NCBI GenBank assembly: GCA_903869265.1
Contig: CAIPYE010000015.1
Span: 62,001 to 126,000 of the forward strand
Direction of reading: 5' to 3'
DNA from: an uncultured delta proteobacterium
GTDB lineage: Bacteria > Desulfobacterota > Desulfobulbia > Desulfobulbales > Desulfurivibrionaceae
Length of the DNA: 64,000 nt
The position numbers and the translations under genes were made by a program. Shown here piece after piece: positions 593 to 35,569 of the stretch; the first letter of the stretch is position 1, and each line of letters begins with the position of its first letter. A model generated the notes under the pieces. The model made no database searches. It was not told where the DNA came from and saw only the letters and a list, made by a program, of their open reading frames with translations.

Positions 593-1357
593 ATGTTTGG
601 TTTTTTTCGATCAGCAAAAAGCAAGGGCGGCCAAACCGTTGGTTCGGAAGGGCTTGATCCCCAAACCCAGCACCAGCAGGAGCGGGAACAGTTTCAGGAG
701 GTGCTGGAATCCTTCAATGCCTCCCGCATCGAAGAGCGGTTGAAAGTGCTGGACATTTTTCTTTCCGTGGAAGAGCATCTGACCCTGACCGGGCTGGAGG
801 GGATCATCAGGGAAAAAAGACCGGAGTTGCTGGACCGGGAGTTTCTTAAGGAAACCATGGAGATGTTCTGCCAGTTCGGCTTTGCCCAGAAACAACTGTT
901 TGTAACCCAGGAACCGGTGTACGAACACCACCACCTCGGCATGCACCATGACCATTTCATCTGCACCCGCTGTGGCAAGATTCAGGAGTTTGCCAACCAC
1001 GATCTTGAAAGGCTCCAGCACGAAATAGCTCGGCAGTTCCAATTCCACCCGCTACAGCACAAGATGGAGATCTACGGCCTCTGCGCCTTATGTATGGCGC
1101 AACGGGAACCGGCCCTGTCCTTGCAGTATGCCGCCAACGGCGAACGGGTGCGGATCGTCACCATCTTGGGCGGCAGGGAGGTGCAGGCCCGGCTGAGCGA
1201 TATGGGCCTTGCGGTGGGGACATGCCTGGAGATCGTCAGCAATCATTCCGCCGGACCGCTCATCGTGGCAAGCAAGGGGACGCGCCTGGCCATCAATGCC
1301 GGTCTGGCCAAAAAGGTCATGGTGGCGCATGCTTGCCGACAGGCCGATGAATTGTAA
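593..1357 (+). CDS. Fur-family metalloregulator fused to a C-terminal FeoA domain
   Basis: This 254-residue protein joins two iron-related modules. Residues about 40-170 form a Fur-type winged helix and dimerisation region with metal-binding features: EHHH at 111-114, HHDHF, C124xxC127 and C164xxC167. Residues about 178-247 form a FeoA/SH3-like domain (GERVRIVTILGG...RLSDMGLAVGT...). The first 40 residues are polar and of unknown role. An AGGAG sits 7 bases before the ATG. Fur proteins repress or activate metal-uptake genes; FeoA domains normally accompany FeoB or sit at the end of DtxR-type regulators. No feoB is visible here. The metal sensed (iron, zinc or manganese) cannot be told from sequence alone. 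Confidence 0.85.
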   Translation: MFGFFRSAKSKGGQTVGSEGLDPQTQHQQEREQFQEVLESFNASRIEERLKVLDIFLSVEEHLTLTGLEGIIREKRPELLDREFLKETMEMFCQFGFAQKQLFVTQEPVYEHHHLGMHHDHFICTRCGKIQEFANHDLERLQHEIARQFQFHPLQHKMEIYGLCALCMAQREPALSLQYAANGERVRIVTILGGREVQARLSDMGLAVGTCLEIVSNHSAGPLIVASKGTRLAINAGLAKKVMVAHACRQADEL

Positions 1358-1383
1358 GGGTGTCATGCCTGTTGATTCAGTCC

Positions 1384-1413
1384 CTTGACATCTCCCCTGA
1401 ACGGTCCCATACT
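1384..1413 (+). promoter_or_regulatory. Promoter of the zinc-knuckle/Hsp20/Lon operon, possibly heat-shock type
   Basis: TTGACA at 1385-1390 and CATACT at 1408-1413 are separated by 17 bases, a good sigma-70 layout. The same stretch also reads CTTGACA-N15-CCCATAC, which resembles the sigma-32 pattern CTTGAA...CCCAT. It lies about 75 bases before the first gene of a proteostasis operon. Which sigma factor uses it is inference. Confidence 0.5.
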
Positions 1414-1488
1414 TTTCACATGGGGTGCGAAGCAATACGTCTCAGTCACGCTGGCGGGCTCTTCAATTTTTGGACGAGGAGGGGTGTT

Positions 1489-1671
1489 ATGAACGGTGCG
1501 GATAAAAAGGTGTGTCCTGAATGCAACGGCGAAAAGGTGATCCGGGGAACCTGCGAATGCAACAGTGAGTGGCGCGGGTCCAAGGTCGGCGATGACTGGA
1601 ACGATTGCCAGTGCGTGCCGCAGGTGACATGCCCCGTGTGCAAGGGGACCGGGTTTGTCGAACATCCTTAG
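1489..1671 (+). CDS. Mini zinc-knuckle protein with DnaJ-like CxxCxGxG motif
   Basis: This is a 60-residue protein. The ATG at 1489 is chosen because GGAGGGG lies just before it; a longer upstream reading frame covers promoter sequence. Cysteines are paired: C9xxC12, C22xC24, C40xC42 and C48xxC51 followed by KGTG. The last pair reads CPVCKGTGF, the form found in the zinc-binding repeats of DnaJ and related chaperones. There is no J domain. It lies 44 bases upstream of an Hsp20 gene and then Lon, so a role in protein quality control is plausible but unproven. Confidence 0.7.
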   Translation: MNGADKKVCPECNGEKVIRGTCECNSEWRGSKVGDDWNDCQCVPQVTCPVCKGTGFVEHP

Positions 1672-6777: not shown

Positions 6778-7644
6778 TCATCTTTTGGGAAGAACCGTAT
6801 ATTTCTCCACCAGATGGTCGGGAAAGTAGCTCTCCTTGGCCTGGCGCAGGCCTGGGATGCCGAGGTCCTGTTCCCTGTTCACATAGGTGAATCCGGTGAG
6901 GGCCTCTCGGGCGAACCAGTGGGTAATGAGCTGGCCGAGGCCAGAAATATTCGGCATCGCTTTTTCAAAATGCCATACCGCGGTGTCGAGGCTGAGTGGC
7001 TCGGCCACGGCATAGGCAGCGATCTTGCCATCCACCCGGATGGCGCCGCCAAGGCACTCGAATGCCTCGAAGTGTTCCAAGGTCTCACGGATCGACGCAT
7101 CCTCGCCCGCAAGATCTAGGTTGATTGCGCATTCGCGTATCTCGCACCAGTGGCTCTGCATGGCCAAACATTCGGCGAGGATTGGAGGCGAGAAAGGTTC
7201 GTACTCGCAGCGGTACTGCTCCAAGCAGCTCTTTATGTGGTTACGCTTCTTTGAATAGTTGCGGCCAGCAAGCTCGGCTAGATCTCGCACCCTGTAGACG
7301 TAATCGGCATTGTCCCGATCTGTTGCCACTACATAGCCGATTTGGCGCAATTGTTCCGCTTCAGGGGCGGGAATTCTCACCATCCGGGAGAAGGTGTACG
7401 TGGCCGCAACCTCTTCAATGGACAGGGGGCCGATTGGCGAGCCGAAGAGTACCGTGGGTTCGCGGCCCCCCTTCTCTGTCACCCAGAAGATCAGGGTGTC
7501 ATCCACCACATGGAACCATACTGGCCGGGTGTGTCGCCAGGCAAAGAGATTGGTGAAGGTCAGCTCTGAGATCGTAGGGGGAAATTTTTGGAGATATTCC
7601 GTAATGGATAGTCTGTCATCAAGGGTAAGTCGGCGCAGGTTCAT
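6778..7644 (-). CDS. DUF2156 protein (phosphatidylglycerol lysyltransferase C-terminal-like, GNAT fold)
   Basis: This 288-residue protein starts at the ATG whose upstream sequence is AGGAG with 5-base spacing; 25 extra upstream codons are rejected. The family has a double GNAT fold, as in the soluble half of lysyl-phosphatidylglycerol synthase MprF. Visible family features are FTNLFAWR near the start, NYSKKRNHIK in the middle, and the end FTYVNREQDLGIPGLRQAK, typical of the acyl/aminoacyl-donor site. There is no membrane domain, so it is not a complete MprF. It probably transfers an acyl or aminoacyl group, but the substrate is unknown. Confidence 0.8.
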   Translation of the reverse strand: MNLRRLTLDDRLSITEYLQKFPPTISELTFTNLFAWRHTRPVWFHVVDDTLIFWVTEKGGREPTVLFGSPIGPLSIEEVAATYTFSRMVRIPAPEAEQLRQIGYVVATDRDNADYVYRVRDLAELAGRNYSKKRNHIKSCLEQYRCEYEPFSPPILAECLAMQSHWCEIRECAINLDLAGEDASIRETLEHFEAFECLGGAIRVDGKIAAYAVAEPLSLDTAVWHFEKAMPNISGLGQLITHWFAREALTGFTYVNREQDLGIPGLRQAKESYFPDHLVEKYTVLPKR

Positions 7645-7792
7645 GGGGCTCCTGTGAAGGTGTGGGGTAGGATCAGTATAGAGGCGTCGCAGGATTCTCG
7701 CAATTGATTCCCTTGCCAAAGGTGCGTTGCTTTTCTTGCAAATACGGAGAAATCCGTATAGATTGTGCCTCTTGCAAAAAAACAGAAAAACG

Positions 7793-7894
7793 CCCTTCGA
7801 CAGGCTCAGGGCGAACGGTAGCTATCTTGCATTATAGTTTCTTCCGTTCATGCTGAGTCCTTCGACGTTGCTCAGGAGAGCCTTGTCGAAGCGC
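7793..7894. repeat. Dispersed palindromic repeat, copy 1
   Basis: A short arm (7793-7818, beginning CCCTTCGACAGGCTCAGG) faces a longer arm (7844-7894) across a spacer of about 25 bases. The outer ends read TTCGAC and GTCGAA, and the inner ends are GAACGG and CCGTTC. The long arm contains a second nested TTCGAC and CTCAGGAGAGCC. The same design recurs in opposite orientation at 55319-55414. It ends about 20 bases before ispH. It resembles REP/MITE-type elements with CCTTCGACAGGCTCAGG cores that occur in many proteobacterial genomes. Confidence 0.8.
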
Positions 7895-32096: not shown

Positions 32097-32945
32097 TCAG
32101 TTTCTTCGGCTCTTGCGGAATTGTTGCAAGGCGGTGGCGGTCAGGTAGGCTAAGCCCGCGATTACAATGATGGTCGGGCCGCTGGGCAGATCGTTGTTGT
32201 AGCTGATTGCCAGGCCCGAACCGATAAAGGAGATGCAGAACAGGGTGGCCATCACCATCATCTGCCAGAGGCCCTTGGCAAAGTTGCTCGCCACCGCGGC
32301 GGGCAGGGTCAGCAGGGCAATGACCATCACAATTCCCACCACCCGGACCAGCAGCACCACGGTCAGGGCCGTCAGACAGAGCAGGAGCAGGTAGTACAGG
32401 TCGGTGCGGACCCCTCGCAGCCTGGCATACTCCTCGTCAAAACAGACGGCCAGAAATTTATGGTAAAACAGGGTGGCGGTTCCCACCACCAAGGTGTCCA
32501 GCACCAGCACCATCCAGAGATCAAACTTCGAGATCAGCAGAATATTGCCGAATAGGTAGCTCATCGGCTCGATGTAGCCCGGGGTTTTGGCGATGAACAG
32601 CAACCCGATGGCCATGCCGATGGCCCAGAGGGCGCCGATGGCCGTGTCTTCCCGCTGGTTGGCGTGAATGCTCACCAACCCGATGATGATCGCCGCCAAA
32701 AGCGCCGCGACGATGGCCCCGGAAAGAGGCCCGAACCAGGTGATCCCCAGCTTGTGCTCGCAGTAAAGCCCTGCTCCGATGCCGCCCAGCACGCAATGGG
32801 CGATGGCCCCGGCAATATAGGTGATGCGGCGGGCCACCACGTAGGTGCCGATGATGCCGAAGGCCAGGCTGGCCATGATGCCTGCGGCGAAGGCGTAGCG
32901 CAGAAAGGGGATGGCCGGGTCGGCCAGGGCGTTAAGAAATTCCAT
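32097..32945 (-). CDS. znuB: Zinc/manganese ABC transporter permease (ZnuB-like)
   Basis: This 282-residue ABC-3 family permease has about eight membrane helices. It shows AFAAGIMASLAFGIIGTYVVARRITYIAGAIAH at the front and the conserved GIVMVIALLTLPAAVA segment. It is the last gene of the RHH-znuA-znuC-znuB unit and overlaps znuC by 14 bases. Metal specificity (Zn or Mn) is inferred from ZnuA. Confidence 0.9.
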   Translation of the reverse strand: MEFLNALADPAIPFLRYAFAAGIMASLAFGIIGTYVVARRITYIAGAIAHCVLGGIGAGLYCEHKLGITWFGPLSGAIVAALLAAIIIGLVSIHANQREDTAIGALWAIGMAIGLLFIAKTPGYIEPMSYLFGNILLISKFDLWMVLVLDTLVVGTATLFYHKFLAVCFDEEYARLRGVRTDLYYLLLLCLTALTVVLLVRVVGIVMVIALLTLPAAVASNFAKGLWQMMVMATLFCISFIGSGLAISYNNDLPSGPTIIVIAGLAYLTATALQQFRKSRRN

Positions 32946-33726
32946 GGGTGCAGTGCCCCTCCGGCGAGCAGCGGTGATCGTGGCGGATCATGCGGATGTC
33001 GCCGCCGTACATGTTGCGGATCAGCTCGCCGGTTAGTTCGCTGGTGGGGTGGAGCACGACCTGGCGGTTGACGCAGACGATGCTTTTAAAGAACTTCGAG
33101 GCAAAGCCGACATCGTGGGTAACCAGCATGACGGTGAGCCGTTCGTTGAGTTTGCCCAGCACCTCAAAGAGATGCTCCTCCGAGGCGGCATCGATGTTGG
33201 CCGTGGGTTCGTCCAGGATCAGCAGCTCTCCTTCGGCGGCCAGTGCCCTGGCAATGAGAACCCGCTGTCTTTGTCCGCCGGAGATCTCGGCAAACAGACG
33301 GCCTGCCAGATCCGCCAGGTCCATTTCCGCAAGGGCTGCCATGGCGGCCTCATGATCTGGCTTGGCGTATGCTCCGCAAAAGATCCGGTCCAACCTACCC
33401 ATGAGCACCACATTGAGCACCGTCACCGGAAACTGGGGATCGTAGCGGGCATACTGCGGCACATAGCCGATGCGCAGACGGCTTTTCTCCGGCGTTTGCC
33501 CCAGTACTTCAATCTCGCCCCGGTTGGGTTTGAGCAACCCGAGGATGAGCTTGAGCAGGGTGGTTTTGCCGCCGCCGTTGGGCCCCACGATACAGAGGGA
33601 ATCGCGGGCCATGATCTCTAGGTTGACGCCTTCGAGAATGGGCGTGCCATTGTAGGCGAAATCAAGATCCCGGATGCGGATGGCTGTTTCCTGGGTGCTG
33701 GTGGCGGTCATTGCCTGTTCCTTCAC
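32932..33726 (-). CDS. znuC: Zinc ABC transporter ATP-binding protein (ZnuC-like)
   Basis: This 264-residue ATPase has Walker [10 protein letters not shown], signature [15 protein letters not shown] and Walker [10 protein letters not shown] followed by H-loop LVTHDVGF. The last 20 or so residues end in [16 protein letters not shown], a histidine/cysteine-rich tail that could bind metal. It overlaps znuA by 4 bases. Confidence 0.92.
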
Positions 33727-34613
33727 GGTTTCAGGGATTGTTCGATGGCGGTGGCGATGGTGGCGAGATTGCGCAGCACCTCCCGGTCCAGGGGGTCGAT
33801 GGGGACCACTGCCCCATTGATGGCCTGGGCCACGGTGTCGGCGCTCTTGCTGTCGAATTGCGGCTGGACAAAGATGGTTCGCACCCGATCCTCCCTGGCC
33901 TGGCGGATAAGGGCGGAAAGTTGCCTTGGGGTGGGGGATTTGCCGCTGATTTCCACAGCCTTTTGTCTCAGGCCGTAGGCGTTGGCAAAATAGCCAAAGG
34001 CCGGATGGAACACATAAAAGGTTTTGCCACGGTGCGGGGCCAGGGTGGCGCTCAACCGTGTGTCCAGGGCGCTGATTTCCTTTTGGAGGGAGGCGAGATT
34101 TTTGTGCAGGGCCTCTTTGCGCTCGGGCATCGCGGTGCTCAGGGCTGTTGCCATGTTGTCGGCCATGGTCCGCAGATTGTCCGGGGCCAGCCAGAGATGG
34201 GGGTCTGCCTCATTGCCGTGTGCTTCATGGTGGTCGGGTTCGGTAAGCGGCAGCCTGACGATACCCCTGGTGGAGTCCACAACCCGCAATCTACGATTGC
34301 TGGACGTGACCTTGGCCACCAGTTGTTTCTCAAAGGGGATATCCACGGTGAAAAACAGGCTGGCCCCGGCCAAGGCGGCTGCCTGGCGCGGGGTTGGCTC
34401 AAAGGTGTGCGGGTCTTGCCCTTTGCCCACCAGGGTGTGTACCTCCACCGCATCGCCGCCTATTCTTTCGGCAAGATATGCCTGGGGCGGCACAGTGACA
34501 AAGATTTGCGCCTTTGTCGCGGCTGTCGCAGCAAGGGTGGTGGCTGTCCAGCCGGTGATGACCAGAAAAAAGACAGCGGCGGGCAGAATTTTGGAAAACT
34601 TCAGTGTCGGCAT
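33723..34613 (-). CDS. znuA: Zinc-binding periplasmic lipoprotein/solute-binding protein (ZnuA-like)
   Basis: This 296-residue cluster A-I binding protein captures zinc in the periplasm. A signal peptide covers about 1-28. Histidine-containing zinc-ligand segments include [16 protein letters not shown] and a loop rich in His and Asp ([20 protein letters not shown]), then [11 protein letters not shown]. The ATG at 34613 follows AGGAAA; upstream codons in frame are rejected. It overlaps the regulator gene by 13 bases. Confidence 0.92.
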
Positions 34614-34876
34614 GGGGTTTCCTCGGTTCCGCAGACCAGATGCACGGCCTTGCACTCGTCGCATTTTTGCAGGGAATGGGTGTTGAGGAATTTTGCCCAG
34701 TGCCTGCGTTGCTCCGAGGTGAGGATGCCGGTGCCCTGGCAAAGCGGGCAGCCGTTTTCCAGGGCGTTCAGAATGGCGTTTCTGATGAATTCGGATTTGT
34801 TGGGCACCCTGAGCAGGGCTTGGGCCAGCGTTTCATCGGCCTTGAAGGTGATGGTTTCCGGTTTTTTGTTGCGCAT
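34601..34876 (-). CDS. Ribbon-helix-helix regulator with zinc-knuckle C-terminus
   Basis: This 91-residue protein heads the znu operon. Residues 7-41 fit a CopG/Arc ribbon-helix-helix: a beta strand (ETITFKA), then helices through [14 protein letters not shown]. The C-terminal half contains possible metal ligands: C43xxC46, H59, H67, C72xxC75, H79, C82, C89 and H91. This layout suggests a DNA-binding protein whose state depends on zinc. Two matching palindromes lie in its promoter. Function is inference from domain and position; I do not recognise a named family. Confidence 0.78.
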
Positions 34877-34893
34877 GGTTTTTCTCTGAATTG

Positions 34894-34939
34894 ATACATG
34901 GTATTCACTGATTGTAATACAAAGTATTACCTGTGTAAA
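34894..34939 (-). promoter_or_regulatory. znu promoter with two ATAC-N3-GTAT palindromes
   Basis: On the minus strand TTTACA (34934-34939) and TACAAT (34911-34916) are 17 bases apart. A perfect palindrome GTAATAC-AAA-GTATTAC (34914-34930) fills the spacer and overlaps the -10. A second, shorter copy, ATAC-ATG-GTAT, lies at 34894-34904, its centre 23 bases away (near the expected start of transcription). Both share ATAC-N3-GTAT. This fits an operator for the adjacent RHH protein. Confidence 0.7.
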
Positions 34940-34996
34940 CGGGAATTTTCTTCAGGGCGCATTCACAGGGGAGAATACCCCGGATAAAAATGAGGG

Positions 34997-35024
34997 TTGC
35001 TTCTTCGCTTCCGCGTGGTATATA
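34997..35024 (+). promoter_or_regulatory. Candidate tatA promoter
   Basis: TTGCTT (34997-35002) and TATATA (35019-35024) are 16 bases apart, about 75 bases before the first tatA start. Pattern match only. Confidence 0.4.
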
Positions 35025-35097
35025 TAAGCAATTGCTTTTTTTTGGCTGGCATTGTCGGGCCAAGCCATCTAAACGCCGTCACCTGAAAGAGGTTCTC

Positions 35098-35292
35098 ATG
35101 TTTGGACTAGGAATGCCGGAGCTTTTGGTTATTCTGGTGATCGTTGTCATCGTTTTCGGAGCTGGCAAGCTGCCGGAGATCGGCTCGGGAATCGGGCAGG
35201 GCATCAAGAACTTTAAAAAAGCCACCCGCGATGCTGACAAGCAGGGAAAAGTAGAAGAAAAAAACAAGGAAGAGGGCTCCGGCTCCGCCTGA
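35098..35292 (+). CDS. tatA: Twin-arginine translocase subunit TatA (first copy)
   Basis: This 64-residue protein has the TatA form: an N-terminal membrane helix ([13 protein letters not shown]), the [10 protein letters not shown] hinge, an amphipathic helix ([17 protein letters not shown]) and a charged tail. TatA forms the pore of the Tat export path for folded proteins such as SorA and the Rieske protein in this window. The ATG at 35098 is the only sensible start. A second tatA-like gene follows 49 bases later. Confidence 0.92.
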
Positions 35293-35341
35293 GAAGATAC
35301 TGCACGTTTGTTTGTAATGATTTCATAAAAGGAGAATGAAT

Positions 35342-35569
35342 ATGTTTGGCTTGGGTACTCCGGAATTGATTGTTATCTTGGGGATCGCCTTTCTGGTTTT
35401 TGGCGGGAAAAAGCTGCCGGAAATCGGCTCAGGCCTTGGGCAGGCCATATCTTCATTTAAAAAAGGATTGCGCGAGGCGGAAGAAACCGTGCCCGGCGTG
35501 AAAGAGGTCGCCTCTCTCAAGGAGGAAGTCAACAAGGTTAAGGATTTGGCCAACCCGTTGTCCAAATAA
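35342..35569 (+). CDS. Twin-arginine translocase TatA/TatB-like protein (second copy)
   Basis: This 75-residue paralogue has the same helix-hinge-amphipathic layout ([36 protein letters not shown]), then a longer, more acidic helix (VKEVASLKEEVNKVKD). The start at 35342 has AGGAG at proper distance, unlike the ATG six bases upstream. It is TatA-like rather than a typical long TatB. No tatC is in the window. Confidence 0.9.
   Translation: MFGLGTPELIVILGIAFLVFGGKKLPEIGSGLGQAISSFKKGLREAEETVPGVKEVASLKEEVNKVKDLANPLSK

Follow-up and report, generated by a model that had tools for sequence, protein, structure and literature searches.

A ribbon-helix-helix (RHH) protein of 91 residues, encoded at the head of a znuACB operon, is likely to be a metal-sensing repressor that controls high-affinity zinc import, and its own gene, from GTAWTAC boxes. 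With a little less assurance, we regard it as representing a zinc-sensor class not described before, in which an RHH repressor with a Cys/His zinc domain and the operator GTAWTAC-N3-GTAWTAC replaces Zur or AdcR in several phyla, the predicted targets being znuACB, stand-alone znuA and, in some genomes, a TonB-receptor operon. Put simply, a small Cys-bearing DNA-binding protein and a conserved site are found at zinc-import genes in several phyla and probably shut import down when zinc is plentiful, a task for which other bacteria use the unrelated Zur. Relatives of the protein span Desulfobacterota, Spirochaetota, Planctomycetota, Bacillota and other phyla.

The first-pass annotation of the window, i.e. 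the whole 64,000-nucleotide stretch of DNA analysed, had proposed that a possibly undescribed RHH protein regulates znu at a palindrome in place of Zur. Co-occurrence with znu, conservation of the predicted operator and predicted sites at unlinked znuA genes give the proposal strong support. That the regulator is possibly undescribed agrees with the absence of a curated family and with a literature search, covering few subscription journals, in which no published description of an RHH/CopG protein with znuA, zinc or Zur was found. One match to CopG and zinc, in Paracoccus, was merely an entry in an expression table and was discarded.

The regulator and the znu operon

The genes concerned are as follows.
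34601..34876, minus strand: RHH regulator gene, 91 aa (RHH part about 6-42, Cys/His part 43-82)
33723..34613, minus strand: znuA, zinc ABC transporter substrate-binding protein (PF01297, E 1.7e-69)
32932..33711, minus strand: znuC, ABC transporter ATPase (domain match)
32097..32945, minus strand: znuB, ABC-3 family permease (PF00950)

The annotated arrangement, in which the RHH gene heads znuACB, was confirmed. The gene order is regulator, znuA, ABC ATPase and ABC-3 permease, and the stop of the regulator gene and the start of znuA share 13 bp. Two tandem TatA/MttA-like small genes, 34990-35569 (+), adjoin the znu promoter on its upstream side and are read from the other strand.

The sequence evidence assigns the protein to the ribbon-helix-helix (MetJ/Arc/CopG) superfamily, with an added C-terminal Cys/His domain. 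RHH dimers read DNA by a two-stranded sheet placed in the major groove. The N-terminal half matched the RHH family aCcr1 in all 79 diverse relatives aligned, with a best E of 3e-7 that is below the curated cut-off, and the RHH match of the single window sequence was likewise below the curated cut-offs of Pfam and NCBIfam. No curated family in Pfam or NCBIfam accounts for the window protein, the best NCBIfam score being 20.3 bits against a cut-off of 60, and neither database gave a Fur-family match for the regulator. The AlphaFold model contains helices at 15-22 and 27-41 with pLDDT of about 90; the RHH topology of a strand and two helices was judged from both helices, the strand forming only in the dimer. 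The top VIA-align match was the RHH domain of NikR (2hza; rmsd 1.8 over 37 residues, 30% identity), and its weak score (Z 2.5) agrees with the sequence evidence for an RHH fold.

The C-terminal half contains the two CxxC pairs and the extra His and Cys residues that had been pointed out in the annotation, namely C43-P-L-C46, C72-D-E-C75, H59, H67, C82, C88 and H91. The strictly conserved metal-ligand residues of the regulator lie mostly in this half: C43, C46, H67, C72, C75 and C82 are invariant in the alignment (79/79), where every relative has the pattern CPxC...H...CxxC...C, and H59, W60 and F63 are near-invariant. The closest profile relatives of this half are the CxxCxGxG zinc modules of anti-TRAP (E 7e-4) and DnaJ. 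A sequence search of solved structures gave nothing beyond these weak matches, and Foldseek and VIA-align searches with the isolated C-terminal domain gave no convincing match, which does not make the fold new. The NikR_C domain of Pfam was matched neither by the window protein nor by any of 15 set-A1 members at E up to 1.

The predicted operator

The elements found upstream of the regulator gene are as follows.
34934..34939, minus strand: -35-like hexamer TTTACA, register conserved in relatives
34911..34916, minus strand: -10-like hexamer TACAAT, 3 bp of which are shared with the operator, register conserved in relatives
34914..34930, minus strand: predicted operator GTAATAC-TTT-GTATTAC, two GTAWTAC boxes with centres 10 bp apart
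34894..34904, minus strand: second ATAC-N3-GTAT copy, not conserved, probably chance

The letters of the annotated promoter, TTTACA-17-TACAAT with a palindrome over the -10, were confirmed at 34911-34939 (-). The hexamers are separated by a 17-bp spacer, and GTAATACTTTGTATTAC (34914-34930) fills most of this spacer and half of the -10. It is the sole match to GTAWTACN3GTAWTAC at 0 or 1 mismatch in the 2.8-Mb genome; by comparison, just 2 of 1200 random 160-bp control windows matched with up to 3 mismatches. No larger regulon was found in the host genome, which has 7 sites at 2 mismatches versus 19 for a reversed-pattern control, all strands being counted alike.

The annotation had staked its proposal on conservation of the palindrome upstream of orthologous znu operons. 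This comparison was run and the idea survived: in a 94-locus set, GTAWTAC-N3-GTAWTAC with at most 2 mismatches was found within 200 bp upstream in 76 of the 78 znu-linked loci versus 10 of 4700 shuffles. The 3-bp spacing between the boxes is the only one enriched, with 82 loci, and the other spacings from 0 to 19 gave between 0 and 11. This includes N13, the spacing of NikR-like half-sites two turns apart, with 9 loci. Within the boxes the central bases vary independently (AA 27, TA 23, AT 18 and TT 12 of 83), and the unit is therefore a pair of near-palindromic boxes. The operator is thus predicted to consist of two near-palindromic GTAWTAC boxes one helical turn apart. The palindrome originally proposed as operator is conserved upstream of znu, but the unit appears to be a pair of autonomous boxes 10 bp apart, and the perfect palindrome in the window happens to be an incidental outcome of the two.

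In 54 of 104 loci the operator is preceded by a TTGACA-like hexamer whose end lies 3-6 bp away, and in the commonest register, which is also that of the window, the -10 is found at operator position +14. As the boxes overlap the spacer and the -10 in this register, repression by occlusion would fit.

The second copy of ATAC-N3-GTAT is present as annotated, reading ATAC-CAT-GTAT with its centre 23 bp downstream of that of the main site, but its role as a twin operator did not stand. It has 4 mismatches in 14 positions to the consensus, a level that chance gives in about 5% of random windows, and none of the 15 other promoters examined in the genus contains it; for these reasons it is probably a chance occurrence, and twin operators about two turns apart are not conserved here. 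Genuine second copies at 22-24 bp do occur in a few Bacillota (L038, L042 and L053).

Relatives, unlinked sites and Fur-family proteins

Among 297 genomes sampled evenly from the Desulfobacterota, 22 gave a match, of which 21, the host included, are true carriers; the remaining match (L023) was spurious and was dropped. The suggestion that homologues would co-occur with znu and with the sites is borne out by the operator counts given above and by these carriers, in which the regulator heads znuA(C)(B) or znuCB in 21/21. From GTDB contigs 80 loci were recovered, and the names of their records include Desulfobacterota families, Spirochaetes, Planctomycetes, Bacillota, Zixibacteria, Hydrogenedentes and others. 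When every locus with 600 bp or more downstream is counted, a znu gene lies within 400 bp on the same strand in 103 of 115. In an independent sample from the phylum of a spirochaete carrier, 21 of 296 genomes carry the gene and 15 of the 21 are znu-linked; a site with no more than 1 mismatch accompanies each of the 15 linked loci, and in two of these it lies some 190 bp upstream. No relatives were found in viral contigs or plasmids.

Neither an adjoining znu gene nor a recognisable site was found at L033 and L039, nor at the spirochaete loci L087, L098, L101, L206-L208, L214 and L215. Such carriers, notably the spirochaete group, count against the repressor model. The unlinked spirochaete carriers retain all of the Cys and His ligands.

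The predicted operator sits at promoters of zinc-import genes whether or not these are linked to the regulator. Five genomes have the regulator at the head of a znuCB pair that lacks znuA, and the stand-alone znuA then has a site immediately upstream in all five cases: G102 (L145/L156), G196 (L181), G282 (L182), G053 (L180) and G346 (L197). Where the regulator faces znuACB (L055 and L073) it has no site of its own and an exact site is found at the znuA promoter (2/2), and where it is the last gene (L065 and L076) the site is in front of znuA. An exact site also precedes the genes for a small, apparently membrane-located protein rich in His and Cys and for a TonB-dependent receptor in G053, G196 and G172, and in G358 such a site precedes a similar small protein. 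By way of comparison, 11 non-carrier genomes of the same order contained no exact site, and allowing up to 2 mismatches brought out none at 22 non-carrier znuA loci of that order in the 3-4 kb examined.

The small His/Cys-rich protein (LHPWLHxHG...CxxCxF), for which there was no Pfam match, recurs immediately behind the operator in unrelated carriers, at L153 (4475-4999), L154 (5390-5779), L155 (6063-6500) and L195 (1525-1929), and is probably an unnamed zinc-import accessory. At a planctomycete locus (L059, 4995-5967) a 1-mismatch site is followed not by znu but by a 217-aa His-containing apparent membrane protein, again with no Pfam match. In G057 (L157, 5902; 6786-7883) the operator has the regulator-znuA genes on one side and a divergent FecCD-type permease gene on the other, and it may serve both directions. 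Sites found with a relaxed pattern in L183, L184 and L185 look like chance and were set aside.

The host genome encodes three Fur-family proteins, two of which best match PerR families while one is a Fur-FeoA-like fusion; none of the three reaches a Zur cut-off, which suggests that Zur is absent. In one carrier, G157, no Fur-family protein was matched, yet the operator is present. As a general test for replacement of Zur, Fur-family content proved uninformative because nearly all genomes have a Fur-family protein and Zur cannot be separated from PerR or Fur in this way. Within the window, 593-1357 (+) encodes a 254-aa protein in which an apparent FeoA-type domain comes after a Fur-like part, possibly an iron regulator fused to FeoA, and 1360-1671 (+), immediately after it, encodes a small Cys-rich protein (CPECNG...CPVCKGTG).

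Proposed mechanism and comparison with known systems

From these features we infer a mechanism in which RHH dimers bind both GTAWTAC boxes, one dimer to each near-palindromic box. The two dimers would sit on one face of the DNA, separated by one helical turn, and, covering the promoter spacer and the -10, would block RNA polymerase. The Cys/His domain would bind zinc, with C43, C46, C72 and C75 as the likeliest structural site and H59, H67 and C82 as candidate regulatory ligands. The zinc-loaded regulator would repress, and scarcity of zinc would lead to its release and to expression of the regulator-znuACB operon. DNA binding, repression, the stoichiometry, zinc as co-repressor and the sensing residues are all predictions of this model, and it is the target genes that point to zinc as the metal.

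An unlikely alternative would keep the regulation of znu at the boxes while giving the Cys/His domain purely structural zinc, or having it sense redox state or another metal (Ni, Mn or Cd) and not zinc levels. Structural zinc sites and redox-active centres are both common among CxxC pairs, and anti-TRAP and DnaJ, the closest profile relatives, use the CxxCxGxG module structurally. However, the invariant H67 and C82 and the near-invariant H59, found beside four CxxC cysteines, exceed the needs of one structural site, and the known targets are all zinc-import components. That the protein is an activator or dual regulator, binding under zinc starvation to switch znu on, seems very improbable. The operator never lies far from the promoter, and there are RHH proteins that both activate and repress, AmrZ being described as such in PMC3325190, but boxes that occupy the spacer and reach into the -10, as they do in the commonest register, would place the bound protein where it blocks RNA polymerase.

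Many small RHH proteins are antitoxins binding to the promoters of their own genes, and this one could in principle be antitoxin-like, or purely autoregulatory, and merely adjoin znu. We find this scarcely credible: znu is the partner across many phyla, a regulator gene that does not come first has no site of its own, and the sites at znuA promoters unlinked to the regulator gene appear largely to have refuted it already. The reading preferred here remains that of a metal-sensing repressor of zinc import.

A comparative study published in 2004 (PMC545781) reported that every delta-proteobacterium examined had znuABC, but that Zur and its sites were both missing from G. metallireducens, Desulfuromonas and Desulfotalea psychrophila; it suggested that zinc regulation in these species is absent or uses another mechanism. 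The regulator family and its operator are a candidate for the control of znu in such Zur-less species. If confirmed, the control of zinc uptake would have arisen on one more DNA-binding scaffold, the third, and the nickel sensor NikR would have a zinc-sensing counterpart within the RHH fold. Because the operator is short and the protein has fewer than 100 residues, the idea is directly testable and usable for regulon annotation in many uncultured lineages.

In the same study delta-proteobacterial Zur operators were predicted as ATGCAACNNNGTTGCAT or TAAATCGTAATNATTACGATTTA and the NikR site as GTGTTAC-N13-GTAACAC. NikR is like the regulator in having an RHH domain fused to a metal-binding C-terminal domain, in controlling a metal-import ABC system and in its predicted half-site, GTGTTAC, which resembles GTAWTAC. 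It differs in that a 50-residue Cys/His module replaces its C-terminal domain in the regulator, the boxes of which are 10 bp apart instead of 20, i.e. one turn shorter, and the targets are znu instead of nik. Zur and AdcR regulate zinc import on other scaffolds. Zur, of the Fur family, and AdcR, of the MarR family, share with the regulator the control of znu/adc-type zinc import, presumably with zinc as co-repressor in the case of the regulator, whereas DNA-binding scaffold, operator and size are unrelated. With MetJ and Arc, adjacent short near-palindromic boxes are read by separate dimers. The regulator resembles these and other tandem-dimer RHH repressors in the arrangement of its boxes but differs in box sequence, 10-bp spacing, the added Cys/His domain and the zinc-import targets. 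Finally, the CPxCxGxG zinc-binding turn is shared with the CxxCxGxG modules of anti-TRAP (RtpA) and DnaJ, but the regulator has a single CxxCxGxG paired with a plain CxxC and fused to an RHH domain, and is neither an inhibitor of an RNA-binding protein nor a chaperone.
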